Shown here piece by piece: positions 33,109 to 62,820 of a stretch of DNA of 64,000 nt. The position numbers and the translations under genes were made by a program. Numbering within the stretch: the first letter of the stretch is position 1; the number at the start of each line of letters is the position of its first letter. Source of the DNA: a virus. Where the stretch lies: IMG/VR virus record IMGVR_UViG_3300028393_000035, positions 33,492-97,491 of that record; one strand, 5' to 3'. A model generated the notes under the pieces. It ran no database searches and was not told where the DNA came from. It was given only the letters and a program-made list of their open reading frames with translations.

Positions 33109-33879
33109 TTAAGTTTTAAGTGCAATTAATGGTGCAACAGTATCCACGGCACCACCCACAAGAGTCTGACCGGATACTGTTATTGATCTGAACCAACAAT
33201 CAGCAGTTGTAATTGTAGTTCCAAATAAAGATGGAACGTCTAAAACTGAATAGGTTGCAGTTACTGCTTGAGTATTAAAAAATACACCAATCCAATAAGT
33301 TGTACCAGCAGTTAATGTAAGAGTAGACAGCGACCCAGATCCAGTATTTGCACTCAATGTACCAGTAATAATTCCAGTCGTTGATGTTGTAACGCTTATT
33401 GTGCCAGACACCGGCCTAGTTGTTCCGTCAGTAGCGGTAGAAGTAAGTAGTGTACTACCATCAGATGCGTAAACAGTCATGCGAATACTGCCAGTACTTG
33501 TTGGCGCAGTAGCACAATAAAGCGAATAACTAGCAACTGCAATCGTTTTTGTTGGAGTAAATCTAATTGCGCACGACCCTTGCGCACCCAAACCATTGTT
33601 ACCAACAAAACTTTGTTGAGCATATGTCATGGCTGGTCCTACTACATACAAACCCGCGTGAGAATCAATGCCACGATTATCAACATAATTCTTTGTTGCT
33701 GCGTCTTGAGCGGCAGTTGGATCTGTAACATTTGTAATTTTATTAGTATTAGCGGTAATAGACGCAGTTGCAGGACGATTAGTCGCAAGGTTATCCAAAG
33801 TTAAAGCAGTTGACAAATCACCATAAGCAATAGTTCCATCAGTAATGTCAGTACTTGTTGTGTTAGGATTGTAAGTCAT
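33109..33879 (-). CDS. Fibre-type protein with carbohydrate-binding-like C-terminal domain
   Basis: A 256-residue protein. Residues 40-75 hold the fibre motif NKITNVTDPTAAQDAATKNYVDNR, also present in two neighbouring fibres. The rest is a beta-sandwich (SYSLYCATAPTSTGSIRMTVYAS, GTTYWIGVFFNTQAV). Its ATG overlaps the stop of the 910-residue fibre (TAATG). It probably forms the tip of a fibre or decorates one. Confidence 0.65.
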   Translation of the reverse strand: MTYNPNTTSTDITDGTIAYGDLSTALTLDNLATNRPATASITANTNKITNVTDPTAAQDAATKNYVDNRGIDSHAGLYVVGPAMTYAQQSFVGNNGLGAQGSCAIRFTPTKTIAVASYSLYCATAPTSTGSIRMTVYASDGSTLLTSTATDGTTRPVSGTISVTTSTTGIITGTLSANTGSGSLSTLTLTAGTTYWIGVFFNTQAVTATYSVLDVPSLFGTTITTADCWFRSITVSGQTLVGGAVDTVAPLIALKT

Positions 33880-59273: not shown

Positions 59274-59486
59274 AACAAACTAAAGGTTAGCGCATTAAGC
59301 TTTAGTTCTGACCGAATTAGCTAAAATATACAAAATCCCCCGCCTAGGGGGATAAAAAGAAGACTGCGGGTTACCCTATCCCAAGCTACAATAGGGACTC
59401 CTAAAGATCCTCAGGCTTTACCATACCTTTACTATTGGTATGATAGTGGGGGCAGGGTTAGTATGCCCTGCCCCTTTACTATCTCT
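59136..59486. other. Non-coding control region at the boundary of the small-gene block
   Basis: About 350 bp without a credible gene. It contains GGGACCC repeats, an AT-rich stretch, a TCCCCC/GGGGGA hairpin near 59335, a plus-strand TTTACC-N5-TTTACT box pair at 59417-59433 followed by TATGAT and a G-rich run, and a GGGGCAGGG/CCCTGCCCC hairpin (about 59451-59474) whose tail again carries TTTACT-N5-TTTACT (59475-59491). Confidence 0.5.
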
Positions 59487-59741
59487 TTACTTATTGTCGA
59501 TGTTCACGCTGAGGTTGAATGCTACGTTGAGTTGCGTCAGTGCATCTCGCAGTAGGTCATCTGCTGCGTCTACTGCATCCCTGCGCCGGTCGTGCAGGGA
59601 TGAGATAGCTTCGTTCTTGATGTAGTCTGTCTCGTCAAGGCTATGAACCAACGCCCATGCTTCCTGTTGTGCATCGTGAACCATGTCCATGATGTTGTTG
59701 ATGAGTGTTGTCGGGTCGTGGATGATCTTGGTCTTTGGCAT
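59487..59741 (-). CDS. Small helical protein (84 aa)
   Basis: The ATG at 59741 (MPKTKIIHD) is chosen because AGGAGG lies 9 nt upstream; the frame runs on upstream without support. The product is acidic and helical (IMDMVHDAQQEAWALVHSLD, RRRDAVDAADDLLRDAL). It is the last minus-strand gene of the block, driven by the module at 59773-59805. Function unknown. Confidence 0.7.
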   Translation of the reverse strand: MPKTKIIHDPTTLINNIMDMVHDAQQEAWALVHSLDETDYIKNEAISSLHDRRRDAVDAADDLLRDALTQLNVAFNLSVNIDNK

Positions 59742-59772: not shown

Positions 59773-59805
59773 ATCTTAGCAGGCAATGAGTAAAGAAAGG
59801 GCAAA
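59773..59805 (-). promoter_or_regulatory. Phage promoter module, 10-bp class
   Basis: TAAGAT (-10, 59773-59778), 10 bp, TTTACT (59789-59794) and TTTGCC (59800-59805) on the minus strand. The boxes overlap the tail and stem of a terminator hairpin. It serves the gene at 59487-59741. Confidence 0.65.
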
Positions 59806-59822
59806 GGTTTTACCCTTTGCCC
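59799..59822 (-). terminator. Terminator overlapping a promoter box
   Basis: GGGCAAAGG / CCTTTGCCC stem, followed on the minus strand by TTTCTTTAC. It ends the transcript of the gene at 59832-60050. Confidence 0.65.
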
Positions 59823-59831
59823 CTATGATCT

Positions 59832-60050
59832 CTATACTTCGTTCAGGATATTCTGATGCTTGTTTACGATTTCAAGGATCGCATCTACAAACTTCTGACC
59901 ATTGAACATCGGATTGCATTCGTACATGGCCTGTATCGTATATCCGTAACGCTCTCTGACCTCATCCTCAGTGAATGGCCTAGTGGTTGATGGATCCCAC
60001 ATATCGCGGCCTAGTGCGTCTGCCAGAATACGGAAGTGCTTGCGGGTCAT
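59832..60050 (-). CDS. Small actinophage-type protein (72 aa)
   Basis: The ATG at 60050 (MTRKHFRILADALG) has GAAGGAG 5 nt upstream. The MTRKHF start with an ILEIVNKH-like end and NPMFNGQKFVDAI near the C-terminus resembles a widespread small protein of actinophages of unknown function. Driven by the module at 60080-60112. Confidence 0.72.
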   Translation of the reverse strand: MTRKHFRILADALGRDMWDPSTTRPFTEDEVRERYGYTIQAMYECNPMFNGQKFVDAILEIVNKHQNILNEV

Positions 60051-60079
60051 GCTGTCTCCTTCATTTGGTTGATGTAACC

Positions 60080-60112
60080 ATCCTAGCACCTGCTAGGTAA
60101 AAGAAAGGTAAA
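60080..60112 (-). promoter_or_regulatory. Phage promoter module, 10-bp class
   Basis: TAGGAT (60080-60085), 10 bp, TTTACC (60096-60101) and TTTACC (60107-60112), minus strand. Confidence 0.7.
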
Positions 60113-60115
60113 GCT

Positions 60116-60400
60116 TTATGATCCCCAACCGCGAGTCTGACCATACGGATCATCTGTTTCACGGCGACCGCGCTGCTCTGCTTGTGTCTGTGCATCTACG
60201 GCGGCGGCCTCTGGATCAGATTCCATTAGGGCAAACATCTGCCTATTAGCGGCCTTCATGCGCTCTGCGGTCTCTGCGAGCTTCTGACGCTCTGCTGTGG
60301 CATCCTCGCCCGCTGCTTCAAGCATATGAATGTTGCGCTCAATGCGCCTATACTCAAATGCTGCATCTCTAACGATTTGTCTAAGTTCATCTATTGTCAT
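60116..60400 (-). CDS. Coiled-coil protein (94 aa), leaderless
   Basis: A helical protein (DELRQIVRDAAFEYRRIERN, DATAERQKLAETAERMKAA) with a polar end. The ATG at 60400 is only 7 nt from the -10 element, so it is probably translated from a leaderless mRNA. The gene is more G+C-rich than the structural genes. Function unknown. Confidence 0.7.
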   Translation of the reverse strand: MTIDELRQIVRDAAFEYRRIERNIHMLEAAGEDATAERQKLAETAERMKAANRQMFALMESDPEAAAVDAQTQAEQRGRRETDDPYGQTRGWGS

Positions 60401-60407
60401 GGTCTAC

Positions 60408-60440
60408 ACCTTATCAGGTAGATTGTAAAGGAAAGGTAAA
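60408..60440 (-). promoter_or_regulatory. Phage promoter module, 10-bp class, leaderless output
   Basis: TAAGGT (60408-60413), 10 bp, TTTACA (60424-60429) and TTTACC (60435-60440). The start codon follows 7 nt after the -10. Confidence 0.68.
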
Positions 60441-60475
60441 GATGTATTTGTCTGATCCGTCCCGCCCACCCTGTC

Positions 60476-60518
60476 ATTGTATCGCCAAACGGCGGCGGCA
60501 AAGTAAAGATATGGCAAA
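60476..60518 (-). promoter_or_regulatory. Phage promoter module, 20-bp class, G-rich start
   Basis: TACAAT (60476-60481), 20 bp, TTTACT (60502-60507) and TTTGCC (60513-60518). Downstream the RNA would begin with GACAGGGTGGGCGGG. Confidence 0.6.
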
Positions 60519-60533
60519 AGATTGGAGGGGGCG

Positions 60534-60558
60534 ATTGGCACCCCCTCCGCTCTTGCTT
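60534..60558 (-). terminator. Terminator after the winged-helix gene
   Basis: GGAGGGGG / CCCCCTCC with a 9-nt loop, then a short T run (AATCTTTT) on the minus strand. Confidence 0.65.
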
Positions 60559-60559
60559 G

Positions 60560-60826
60560 CTACGCTTTTGCTGCGAACCTGCGGCCCTTGTCTGTCAGGC
60601 CGTAGTAGTGAGCGGGGCGACCACGCTTCTCGCTCTTGACCTTGCCCGTGATCTTGACCAGACCGGCCTTCTGCATCCGCGTCATGAATGACGGGGCAAC
60701 CTCAAGGCTCATGGCCGTTGCTTGGCCCTTCTGCGCCTTGATTGCTGCCATTACAGTGGCGGCGTTGGCCTCACCGAAGATTGTGCGGTGGTGCTTGGTG
60801 GTCTTGGTTGTCTTAGTCTCTGGCAT
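60560..60826 (-). CDS. Winged-helix DNA-binding protein (88 aa)
   Basis: The ATG at 60826 (MPETKTTKTT) has AAGGAG 7 nt upstream. After a basic N-terminal tail, residues about 25-88 match a winged helix: helices around AATVMAAIKAQKGQATAMSL and SFMTRMQKAGLV, then a wing KRGRPAHYYGLTDKGR. Such proteins are usually transcription regulators; this is the best local candidate for a protein acting on the promoter modules. Two tandem modules precede it. The gene is clearly G+C-rich compared with the structural genes. Confidence 0.75.
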   Translation of the reverse strand: MPETKTTKTTKHHRTIFGEANAATVMAAIKAQKGQATAMSLEVAPSFMTRMQKAGLVKITGKVKSEKRGRPAHYYGLTDKGRRFAAKA

Positions 60827-60864
60827 TGGATTTCTCCTTGTTGGTTGATTGCCTTGTGTTACAC

Positions 60865-60907
60865 ACTGTATCAAATGATTTGATATTGGAAGCAAAGGTT
60901 TGGTAAA
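60865..60907 (-). promoter_or_regulatory. Phage promoter module, 20-bp class
   Basis: TACAGT (60865-60870), 20 bp, TTTGCT (60891-60896) and TTTACC (60902-60907). Proximal promoter of the winged-helix gene. Confidence 0.55.
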
Positions 60908-60951
60908 ACTTTCTCAATGTTTTTACTGCTTTGTCCTCCCGCCCACCCATC

Positions 60952-60984
60952 ATTATAGCGACCGCTTGGTAAAGAGCGGGTAAA
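60952..60984 (-). promoter_or_regulatory. Phage promoter module, 10-bp class, G-rich start
   Basis: TATAAT (60952-60957), 10 bp, TTTACC (60968-60973) and TTTACC (60979-60984). RNA would begin GATGGGTGGGCGGG. Distal promoter of the winged-helix gene. Confidence 0.7.
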
Positions 60985-60989
60985 GGAAT

Positions 60990-61013
60990 GGAGGGGGCAT
61001 TTCAGCCCCCTCC
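60990..61013 (-). terminator. Terminator after the 86-residue gene
   Basis: GGAGGGGGC / GCCCCCTCC, 6-nt loop, immediately before the promoter boxes of the next unit; the T run is weak. Confidence 0.65.
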
Positions 61014-61038
61014 GTGCCGCTCAACCAAACGGCAAACT

Positions 61039-61299
61039 TTATGCGGTCTCGTCCTGAAGCTCCCAAATCTCGATCTGATCGGGGTTCTGAGTCTGGAGGT
61101 TGGCAAAGTAATCGCCAATCGCCTCATAGATCACGCGGCCCAGATCATCTTCGTTGATCTCTGACTCATCTGGCGTGAACGGTGTCTTAGGCACCGCTAC
61201 CAGAATGAGGCAATCTTCGTGCGCCTCTGCTTCCTGAGCAAGCTCATAGAAAGACTTAGGTGCTGCTTCGATCTTGTTACGACGGTTGAAGAACTTCAT
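61039..61299 (-). CDS. Hypothetical acidic protein (86 aa)
   Basis: SD GAAGGAG lies 6 nt before the ATG. A basic start (KFFNRRNKIE) is followed by an acidic alpha/beta protein (DCLILVAVPKTPFTPDE, GRVIYEAIGDYFANLQTQ). Function unknown. Monocistronic between its module and the terminator at 60990. Confidence 0.7.
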   Translation of the reverse strand: MKFFNRRNKIEAAPKSFYELAQEAEAHEDCLILVAVPKTPFTPDESEINEDDLGRVIYEAIGDYFANLQTQNPDQIEIWELQDETA

Positions 61300-61333
61300 G
61301 TGATTCTCCTTCGGTTGATTTACTGTGGTTACT

Positions 61334-61366
61334 ACCTTAGCAGGTGCTAAGTAAAGAGAGAGTAAA
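61334..61366 (-). promoter_or_regulatory. Phage promoter module, 10-bp class
   Basis: TAAGGT (61334-61339), 10 bp, TTTACT (61350-61355) and TTTACT (61361-61366). Confidence 0.7.
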
Positions 61367-61368
61367 AC

Positions 61369-61551
61369 CTACTCTGCGATCATCTCAACTGGAATGAGTG
61401 ACTCATGCTCGTCAGCAGCAAGGTTAGTGTAGATAAGCAGGCCGCCTTCGCCATCTTCACCTACATCCATGCCGCGACTGTTAGCCCAAGTCATTAGCTC
61501 GCCAACTGTATTCCATTCAAGCGAGTTGATAAGTTTATCAAAATCAGTCAT
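61369..61551 (-). CDS. Hypothetical acidic protein (60 aa)
   Basis: SD GGAGG lies 7 nt before the ATG. The product is acidic (LEWNTVGELMTWANSRGMD, GLLIYTNLAADEHESLI) and may be a small alpha/beta domain. Function unknown. Confidence 0.7.
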   Translation of the reverse strand: MTDFDKLINSLEWNTVGELMTWANSRGMDVGEDGEGGLLIYTNLAADEHESLIPVEMIAE

Positions 61552-61585
61552 TTGATTACCTCCGGGTTGATTTACTGTGTTTCAC

Positions 61586-61618
61586 ACTCTAGCAGATCTT
61601 AGGTAAAGACTTTGCTAA
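61586..61618 (-). promoter_or_regulatory. Phage promoter module, 10-bp class, degenerate distal box
   Basis: TAGAGT (61586-61591), 10 bp, TTTACC (61602-61607); the distal site (61613-61618) reads TTAGCA and overlaps the stop of the upstream zinc-ribbon gene. Confidence 0.55.
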
Positions 61619-61752
61619 TCTTCGTAATCTTCTGGGTTGTTCTTCTTGTCACAATCGTTACATACCCATCCATCAAAGTCATCCATTACGTTGCCTGTAA
61701 CTAGAACATCCTCGCCACAGTCTTCGCAAGGAATCAGCTTAGTAATGCTCAT
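61615..61752 (-). CDS. Zinc-ribbon protein (45 aa)
   Basis: A 45-codon frame with GGAG 5 nt before its ATG. IPCEDCGEDVLV and WVCNDCDKKN give a complete Cys4 zinc ribbon. It is preceded by its own promoter module. Function unknown. Confidence 0.75.
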   Translation of the reverse strand: MSITKLIPCEDCGEDVLVTGNVMDDFDGWVCNDCDKKNNPEDYED

Positions 61753-61781
61753 TACATCTCCTTCGATTGGTTGATGAACAC

Positions 61782-61814
61782 ATCGTAGCAGGTCTTAGGT
61801 AAAGACTAAGTAAA
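61782..61814 (-). promoter_or_regulatory. Phage promoter module, 10-bp class
   Basis: TACGAT (61782-61787), 10 bp, TTTACC (61798-61803) and TTTACT (61809-61814). Confidence 0.7.
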
Positions 61815-61815
61815 A

Positions 61816-62298
61816 CTATTCAACGGTAATATCTACATACCATTTGGTAGTCGAATTCTCCTTCTTCCATAAAAGATAAAATCCGCGAGCTTGCGTCCAT
61901 GACTTGTATCGTGCGATAAGTGTTTTATCTGACGGGTCATTATTTGTTTTCAGTTGATTGTATTCTCCCATAGTTGGGAAACTACCAACCTTACTTTCGA
62001 TACGGGCGATTGCGCGACATATTGTCGTATCGTCAATCGTTTGTTCTCCAAAACCTTTAGGTTGTTCAGAGCAGGGCAAACCGGCAGCTATTTTCCAACT
62101 AGTCCAACCGTATTTCTTTGTGTCTGAGAATGACCTTCTATTGGCAATTAGAGGCCCGCTAGGATAGCTGCCTTTTTGTTCACGCCTCCATTCGACATAT
62201 TTTTTTATGCCAAATTTTGGATCATTCAAATCCTTTGCGCATTTACGCAAAGCGTCAATTATATCCTGCTCTGAGTATTTCTTTTTGTGAATAGTCAT
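61816..62298 (-). CDS. Protein with two homing-endonuclease-associated repeats, leaderless
   Basis: A 160-residue protein. Two copies of the HNH-associated helical repeat are visible: about residues 8-73 (YSEQDIIDALRKCAKDL, KYVEWRREQKG, SWKIAAGL) and about 87-140 (ICRAIARIESKVGSFP, EYNQLKTN, RYKSWTQARGF). In homing endonucleases such repeats bind DNA, but no HNH or other nuclease motif is present. It may be an orphan DNA-binding regulator. The ATG lies 6 nt from the -10, so the mRNA is leaderless. Confidence 0.7.
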   Translation of the reverse strand: MTIHKKKYSEQDIIDALRKCAKDLNDPKFGIKKYVEWRREQKGSYPSGPLIANRRSFSDTKKYGWTSWKIAAGLPCSEQPKGFGEQTIDDTTICRAIARIESKVGSFPTMGEYNQLKTNNDPSDKTLIARYKSWTQARGFYLLWKKENSTTKWYVDITVE

Positions 62299-62304
62299 AA
62301 GCGC

Positions 62305-62337
62305 ATCCTAGCAAACCAATAGTAAAGAACAGGTAAA
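62305..62337 (-). promoter_or_regulatory. Phage promoter module, 10-bp class, leaderless output
   Basis: TAGGAT (62305-62310), 10 bp, TTTACT (62321-62326) and TTTACC (62332-62337). The ATG follows after 6 nt. Confidence 0.7.
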
Positions 62338-62373
62338 ACTTTGATTCCCTCTCTGTCCGCCCGCCCTCCCTGC

Positions 62374-62416
62374 ATTATATCCAAATACTTTATATCAAAA
62401 GTAAAACTTAGGTAAA
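62374..62416 (-). promoter_or_regulatory. Phage promoter module, 20-bp class, G-rich start
   Basis: TATAAT (62374-62379), 20 bp, TTTACT (62400-62405) and TTTACC (62411-62416). RNA would begin GCAGGGAGGGCGGGCGG. The distal box is the T-tract of the terminator at 62421. Confidence 0.68.
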
Positions 62417-62420
62417 GAAA

Positions 62421-62460
62421 GGGCCGGGATTGGGGAACTGTGAAATTCCTCTCCCGGCCC
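62421..62460 (-). terminator. Terminator of the structured RNA
   Basis: GGGCCGGGA / TCCCGGCCC with an inner GGAA/TTCC stem, followed on the minus strand by TTTCTTT. Confidence 0.88.
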
Positions 62461-62680
62461 GTAGCTACTAGATTGTTTATTATCTATTTCTTGGACACTC
62501 TCTACCTTGAGTTCCGAACCCATGATAGCTGTATAGTCGTCTATCCACTGCACTCGCACCTATGTTAGCGTGGCATCTCTTCACGGTTTGTTTTACGAGA
62601 TTGCTACCGACTCTCGTTAGTCCTCTAACCGACCGTCGCCGGTCTGACTACATGGCCGATGGGCTAGCTCCATCAACAAG
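62421..62680 (-). ncRNA. Candidate structured non-coding RNA of about 260 nt
   Basis: A minus-strand transcript from the promoter at 62685 to the terminator at 62421 has no credible ORF. It carries several local hairpins: GATGG/CCATC with a 7-nt loop (62658-62674), GACCG/CGGTC with a GNRA loop GCGA (62631-62644), GTTAG/CTAAC (62616-62629), CGAGA/TCTCG (62596-62616), CCAC/GTGG (62545-62573) and GATAG/CTATC (62524-62545). It does not fit tRNA, tmRNA or RNase P features that I know. Two promoter modules in tandem (62685 and 62778) drive it. Role unknown: a regulatory or decoy RNA is possible. Confidence 0.55.
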
Positions 62681-62684
62681 AACA

Positions 62685-62729
62685 ACTATACAGATGGACC
62701 CATATGAAGTCAAGTAAAGGTTTAGTAAA
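62685..62729 (-). promoter_or_regulatory. Phage promoter module, variant spacing, for the structured RNA
   Basis: TATAGT (62685-62690), 22 bp, TTTACT (62713-62718) and TTTACT (62724-62729). Confidence 0.55.
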
Positions 62730-62777
62730 GGATTTACCAATGCAATGGATAGTCTTTGTTCCGCCCTCCCACCCTTC

Positions 62778-62820
62778 AATATAGCAACAAAACCAATACA
62801 AAAAGTAAAGGTTTAGCAAA
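62778..62820 (-). promoter_or_regulatory. Phage promoter module, 20-bp class, G-rich start
   Basis: TATATT (62778-62783), 20 bp, TTTACT (62804-62809) and TTTGCT (62815-62820). RNA would begin GAAGGGTGGGAGGGCGG. Confidence 0.62.

Follow-up and report, generated by a model that had tools for sequence, protein, structure and literature searches.

In the phoA promoter, 10 bp separate the pho box from the -10 element. PHO boxes consist of a 7-bp sequence repeated directly after a gap of 4 bp; they stand in place of the -35 element at a strictly kept distance from the core promoter, an arrangement characteristic of regulators of the OmpR/PhoB family (PMC4415409, PMC10294691). Three actinobacterial regulators of this family have boxes much like one another. 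The MtrA box of Mycobacterium tuberculosis is made of two 7-bp repeats, t/c-G/t-T/a-n-a-C/T-c, with a 4-bp spacer (PMC11215152), that of Streptomyces coelicolor reads KTRACC-N5-GTKACN (PMC5650626) and that of Corynebacterium glutamicum is built of RTAACAAT-n3 repeats (PMC3353115). GlnR boxes are written as GTnAC-n6-GTnAC or t/gTAAC-n6-Gc/aAAC, GlnR being bound head-to-tail in the structure on RNA polymerase (PMC10704036), and the PhoP box is formed by GTTCACC in 11-nt units (PMC6988585). In Alphaproteobacteria, the essential host response regulator CtrA binds phage promoters and activates or represses them (PMC9437464). Here, a repeated promoter-like element with a related layout is described in a virus, within a 64,000-nucleotide stretch (the window; positions 33,492 to 97,491 of the IMG/VR record IMGVR_UViG_3300028393_000035), where pairs of TTTRCY hexamers precede the small genes of a block at 59773-62820. 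We propose, with a probability of roughly 45%, that these pairs mark lineage-specific, activator-dependent promoters read by a host regulator of the OmpR/PhoB family (MtrA, GlnR or PhoP type).

An earlier note on this DNA had reported at least 13 copies of the element within 3 kb of the minus strand, with a constant 11-bp period, a TANNNT-like -10 downstream of each pair, no normal -35 and an own copy for nearly every small gene. The observation of paired hexamers followed by TANNNT was confirmed, and it applies to four related phages. Indeed, TTTRCY-N5-TTTRCY was found 14 times in the window, exclusively between 59417 and 62820, against 0.32 +/- 0.55 copies expected, and none of 100 shuffles reached 14; the full 97,491-base record (G000) contains 15 pairs and no copy of the reversed pattern. 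The minus strand of the block has 13 modules within 3 kb. Pairs start at 62820, 62729, 62416, 62337, 61814, 61366, 60984, 60907, 60518, 60440 (where the second hexamer is TTTACA), 60112 and 59805, and the 13th module, at 61618/61607, has a degenerate first hexamer. TANNNT lies downstream in 13/13 modules, after N10 in eight (59805, 60112, 60440, 60984, 61366, 61618, 61814 and 62337), after N20 in four (62820, 62416, 60907 and 60518) and in a hybrid arrangement in one (62729). All eight open reading frames (ORFs) called between 59487 and 62298 have their own copy, some of them two in tandem. Two parts of the earlier description had to be narrowed: a normal -35 is missing from 12 of the 13 modules but present in the hybrid at 62729 (TTGACT-N17-TATAGT), and the 13 modules do lie on the minus strand, but two further pairs were detected on the plus strand (59417, 59475), either side of a terminator-like hairpin.

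When the composite pattern (pair plus TGCTANNNTG) was scanned over IMG/VR, matches were confined to the contigs G001 (127 kb), G002 (132 kb) and G003 (136 kb), and a relaxed version of the composite led again to these three only. They carry 19, 8 and 21 pairs, with the reversed control at 0 in each, so that the enrichment in relatives proposed as a check by the earlier note was found. When a matrix trained on G001 and G002 only was applied to the complete G000, 9 sites scored above 15 bits, compared with 0.1 per shuffle; all nine lie in the block (eight strong sites on the minus strand and a weaker one on the plus strand). The motif is kept although the block proteins are only ~64-69% identical between phages. 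The pair is absent from G004 and G005, which are incomplete contigs whose tail sheaths are related, and from G006, a 152-kb relative, and the repeat is absent from Rhodococcus phage Finch. In 84,980 GTDB bacterial and archaeal genomes (257 billion bases), a search with the composite, its spacer made slightly stricter, found 0 matches, ~1 being expected by chance from base content. Since the composite occurs in IMG/VR only in these relatives and nowhere in the GTDB genomes, the element belongs to this phage lineage. No named phage with similar DNA was found, and ThyX compared with GTDB gave distant archaeal matches only, which say nothing about the host. The tail sheath is ~27-29% identical to sheaths of Mycobacterium and Rhodococcus phages, tail-sheath relatives infecting Mycobacterium, Gordonia and Rhodococcus, and the G+C content of G000 is ~40%, thus pointing to a lower-GC actinobacterium as the probable host. 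These are large, contractile-tailed freshwater phages, probably of actinobacteria.

The anatomy of the element was derived from 59 distinct sites pooled from the four phages (G000-G003). The 11-bp period is sharp, with 9, 12, 8 and 10 same-strand TTTACY pairs at this distance in the four genomes, and no other distance up to 60 is represented more than twice. The distance from the second hexamer to TANNNT is exactly N10 in 34 of the 59 sites and N20 in 8, whereas other offsets have a mean of 0.57; an extended -10 (TGn) was present in 29/34 N10 sites, among which no TTGACA-like element at a spacer of 16-18 was found above chance. The geometry is thus that of a 7-4-7 direct repeat followed by 10 bp and the -10. 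With the -10 placed at -12 to -7, the hexamers fall at -39 to -34 and -28 to -23 in the N10 class and at -49 to -44 and -38 to -33 in the N20 class. A third hexamer that would explain the N20 class was looked for and not found, and this class may conceal a second kind of site.

In actinobacteria, mRNAs often lack a leader. A leaderless arrangement, with an ATG 6-7 nt past the -10, was observed at five class-10 sites and one class-20 site in the four phages (in the window at 62337 and 60440, in G001 and G002 at a single site apiece, and in G003 at one site of each class), and at many further sites the ATG lies 29-31 nt past the -10 with a good ribosome-binding site in front. The position of the ATG relative to the -10, either leaderless or with a uniform leader, argues for both spacing classes as real promoters, and the leaderless starts would support promoter function independently of the motif. 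Motif, phase, conservation, restriction to the small-gene arm, missing -35 and leaderless starts were all computed directly, and the promoter reading of the earlier note is in accordance with the fixed phase, the extended -10, the lack of a -35, the uniform leaders or leaderless starts and the enrichment conserved in relatives. Ordinary TTGACA/T promoters coexist with the paired ones (e.g., 63047 and 62713 in the window, with counterparts in G001 and G003), and the paired promoters are therefore a separate class.

A trivial origin, by chance or from T-rich low complexity where terminator T-tracts ending in TTTAC adjoin AT-rich promoters, was also considered. Some first hexamers do overlap terminator T-tracts (62416, 60984). 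Nevertheless, the reversed pattern is absent from every genome, period and N10 phase are both sharp, and the element is conserved between phages whose block proteins have diverged; these controls refuted such an origin, which we regard as extremely improbable.

The pho box of Escherichia coli, bound by PhoB, resembles the phage element in its 11-bp period, in the replaced -35 and in the strict spacing to the -10. It differs in the repeat (CTGTCAT, against CTTTACY in the phage), in that the phage -10 is extended and in that the phage is one of presumed actinobacteria. This layout, missed by the earlier note, would make an OmpR/PhoB-type regulator, probably the host's, a more natural candidate for the binder. 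That note had likened the element to T4 middle promoters and to mycobacteriophage start-associated sequences. The T4 middle promoter has one MotA box near -30. The logic is shared, since in MotA/AsiA promoters too the -35 is replaced by a box for a factor other than sigma region 4, but kinship is not, as the phage has two hexamers 11 bp apart (-39/-28 or -49/-38) and no MotA-family protein. Start-associated sequences and cluster A stoperators of mycobacteriophages are likewise short repeats near many small phage genes; they are not known to be arranged as tandem pairs at a constant distance from a -10, and kinship with them was not supported.

We infer protein binding, activation, an OmpR type and host origin of the binder and the timing of expression as follows. 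RNA polymerase with the primary sigma factor would recognise the extended -10 (TGnTANNNTG), and in place of the absent -35 contact a protein dimer would sit in tandem, head-to-tail, on (c)TTTACY-N4-cTTTACY, 10 bp ahead of the -10, in the way that PhoB occupies the pho box. The binder would most likely be a host response regulator of the OmpR/PhoB family (MtrA, GlnR or PhoP type), and ~8 to more than 20 small genes, together with a non-coding RNA, would be switched on at once with little or no phage-made factor. No OmpR/PhoB-type DNA-binding domain was found above cut-off in the four phages, and this absence favours a host protein as the reader. Among the possible readings, we rank a host OmpR/PhoB-family regulator first, with a phage protein as its main competitor and a repressor role in third place.

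The phage box, read as TTTAC-n6-TTTAC, shares with MtrA, GlnR and PhoP boxes the core T-n-A-C(-C) and the tandem arrangement, with repeats of 5-7 bp every 11 bp, and the invariant spacing of AC is that of the MtrA and GlnR boxes. All seven positions of the phage repeat are admitted by the MtrA consensus of M. tuberculosis (PMC11215152). Several points weigh against a host regulator of this type. The phage 5-mer begins with T, where G or A is preferred in MtrA boxes and in most GlnR boxes, and at this G/A position the repeat departs from the MtrA consensus of both C. glutamicum and S. coelicolor (PMC3353115, PMC5650626). The phage boxes are far less degenerate than host MtrA, GlnR and PhoP boxes; with the composite lacking from the GTDB genomes, no sampled host regulon uses it in exactly this form. 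The four phages encode DNA-binding candidates of their own, predicted to be sigma region-4-like, MerR-like, helix-turn-helix (HTH) and PadR/AspA-like, and an actinobacterial host is presumed from tail-sheath kinship and G+C content. Moreover, MtrA of C. glutamicum activates from sites upstream of the -35 and represses near the -10 (PMC3353115). Because of the change of the first base from G or A to T, the host-regulator reading is put forward tentatively.

The same behaviour of MtrA near the -10 (PMC3353115), together with the repression of one phage promoter, DELTA_120, by host CtrA (PMC9437464), could suggest that the boxes are repressor operators, either for phage immunity or for host MtrA, superimposed on promoters with an extended -10; the block would then stay silent until release. 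The boxes do overlap the promoter. On the other hand, a constant N10 phase and a -35 missing from almost all copies would be expected of an integral promoter element rather than of an operator, and a search of the four phages for a tyrosine integrase was negative; a repressor role appears unlikely.

A phage-encoded activator not of OmpR type, be it PadR/AspA-like, sigma region-4-like or an unrecognised small protein, is a more substantial alternative, which we consider quite possible; the block would then be expressed in the manner of T4 middle genes. The restriction of the motif to this lineage is in line with it. The binder favoured by the earlier note was the winged-helix protein encoded inside the block (60560..60826, minus strand; 88 aa, PadR/AspA-like), which is present in all three motif-bearing contigs spanning that region, with relatives in G001 (65%) and G003 (99%), G002 ending inside the region and being uninformative on the presence of the gene. 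It was not found in other viral contigs nor in the motif-less G004, G005 and G006 (G004 and G005 being fragments). Its profile matches AspA, a winged-helix protein of the Protein Data Bank (E 2.5e-4), PadR being below cut-off; the AlphaFold model has low confidence (pLDDT 66), and its best fold matches are to PadR, none of them significant. Proteins of the PadR/AspA type recognise palindromes in the form of symmetric dimers; a perfect palindrome, TATCAAATCATTTGATA (60869-60885), is present on the gene's own promoter in G000 and G003, where it is likely to be an autoregulatory operator. Being of a palindrome-binding type with a palindrome of its own, the winged-helix protein is a weak candidate for the boxes, and the earlier proposal is weakened. 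A second candidate, a sigma region-4-like protein of 127 aa encoded near RuvC (L010:3218-3601, plus strand), occurs in all four phages (Sigma70_r4_2, E 1.5e-7) and has no recognised region 2. Its relative in Finch, however, gp84 (annotated as a sigma factor; 26%, E 7e-7), belongs to a phage without the motif. Searches of the four phages for MotA (PF09158) and WhiB were negative, and no other clear DNA-binding family was seen among the 44 called ORFs of the G001 small-gene arm.

Returning to the host regulator, the CtrA-controlled phage promoters offer the closest parallel, as here too sites possibly meant for a host OmpR-family regulator are clustered in phage promoter regions. In the CtrA case, binding and regulation are experimental, whereas the present sites are known from sequence alone, in a different clade and with a different motif. 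In the literature searched, whose coverage was partial, no direct report of such an actinophage promoter or of a link between MtrA and phages was found. It is conceivable, and we put it forward with reserve, that a host response-regulator box has been turned into the standard promoter of small genes, so that phosphorylation or abundance of the regulator gates phage take-over; this would be an actinobacterial counterpart of the use of CtrA by Caulobacter phages. If the host-regulator reading is right, ~60 sharply defined promoters control small genes in phages of presumed freshwater actinobacteria, and infection is gated by a host signalling protein, as it is by CtrA in Alphaproteobacteria. With a phage-made factor, too, the sites would form an unusually clean natural library of activator-dependent promoters of fixed geometry, showing how tandem binders replace a -35.

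The single modules, all on the minus strand, are as follows. Class-10 modules predicted to drive the ORF downstream were found at 59773..59805 (TTTGCC-N5-TTTACT-N10-TAAGAT, extended -10 TGC; matrix score 34.1; ORF 59487-59741), 60080..60112 (TTTACC-N5-TTTACC-N10-TAGGAT; 34.6; ORF 59832-60050), 61334..61366 (TTTACT-N5-TTTACT-N10-TAAGGT; 36.8; ORF 61039-61299), 61586..61618 (TTAGCA-N5-TTTACC-N10-TAGAGT, with the degenerate first hexamer; 24.7; ORF 61369-61551) and 61782..61814 (TTTACT-N5-TTTACC-N10-TACGAT; 41.0; ORF 61615-61752). In the two leaderless cases, the ATG of ORF 60116-60400 lies 7 nt past the -10 of 60408..60440 (TTTACC-N5-TTTACA-N10-TAAGGT; 32.5), and that of ORF 61816-62298 lies 6 nt past the -10 of 62305..62337 (TTTACC-N5-TTTACT-N10-TAGGAT; 35.2). 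The class-20 module at 60865..60907 (TTTACC-N5-TTTGCT-N20-TACAGT) precedes the winged-helix gene and contains the palindrome TATCAAATCATTTGATA.

In four further modules, the -10 is followed by a G-rich start: the class-10 module at 60935..60984 (TTTACC-N5-TTTACC-N10-TATAAT, then GGGTGGGCGGGAGG at 60935-60948; matrix score 39.1) and the class-20 modules at 60457..60518 (TTTGCC-N5-TTTACT-N20-TACAAT, then GGGTGGGCGGGACGG at 60457-60471), which lies beyond the terminator of the winged-helix gene, at 62357..62416 (TTTACC-N5-TTTACT-N20-TATAAT, then GGGAGGGCGGGCGG at 62357-62370), which overlaps the T-tract of the upstream terminator, and at 62761..62820 (TTTGCT-N5-TTTACT-N20-TATATT, then GGGTGGGAGGGCGG at 62761-62774). 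The quadruplex-like G-rich start, GGGWGGGCGGGNNGGA, is present in 11 copies in the four phages, in every case 3-4 nt past the -10 of a paired promoter, and is usually followed by a second paired promoter ~75-100 bp further on. At the block end, the two plus-strand pairs (59417-59433 and 59475-59491) around the terminator-like hairpin have no good -10, and their arrangement is kept in G001 and G003.

The block is headed by a conserved ordinary promoter, TTGACA-N16-TGATAWAAT (window 63047, L026 7125 and L027 6503, all on the minus strand), which is surrounded by AT-rich DNA containing single TTTACT elements and is possibly the earliest promoter. The hybrid at 62685..62729 (minus strand), in which TTTACT-N5-TTTACT overlaps the ordinary TTGACT-N17-TATAGT, is the predicted promoter of a conserved non-coding transcript. 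This probable structured non-coding RNA of ~260 nt (62416-62678, minus strand), with a promoter of its own, ends in a terminator hairpin (62460-62421) and has counterparts at L027 5825-6145 and L026 6540-6865 (both minus strand), being conserved in G003 and G001. Eight predicted pairs are altered on both sides with pairing kept. No Rfam family was recognised for it or elsewhere in the block, and its core sequence was found in IMG/VR in these relatives only. Finally, the 86-aa protein encoded at 61039-61299 (minus strand) contains SFYELAQEAEAHEDCLILVAVPKTPFTP, very strongly conserved between G000 and G001.

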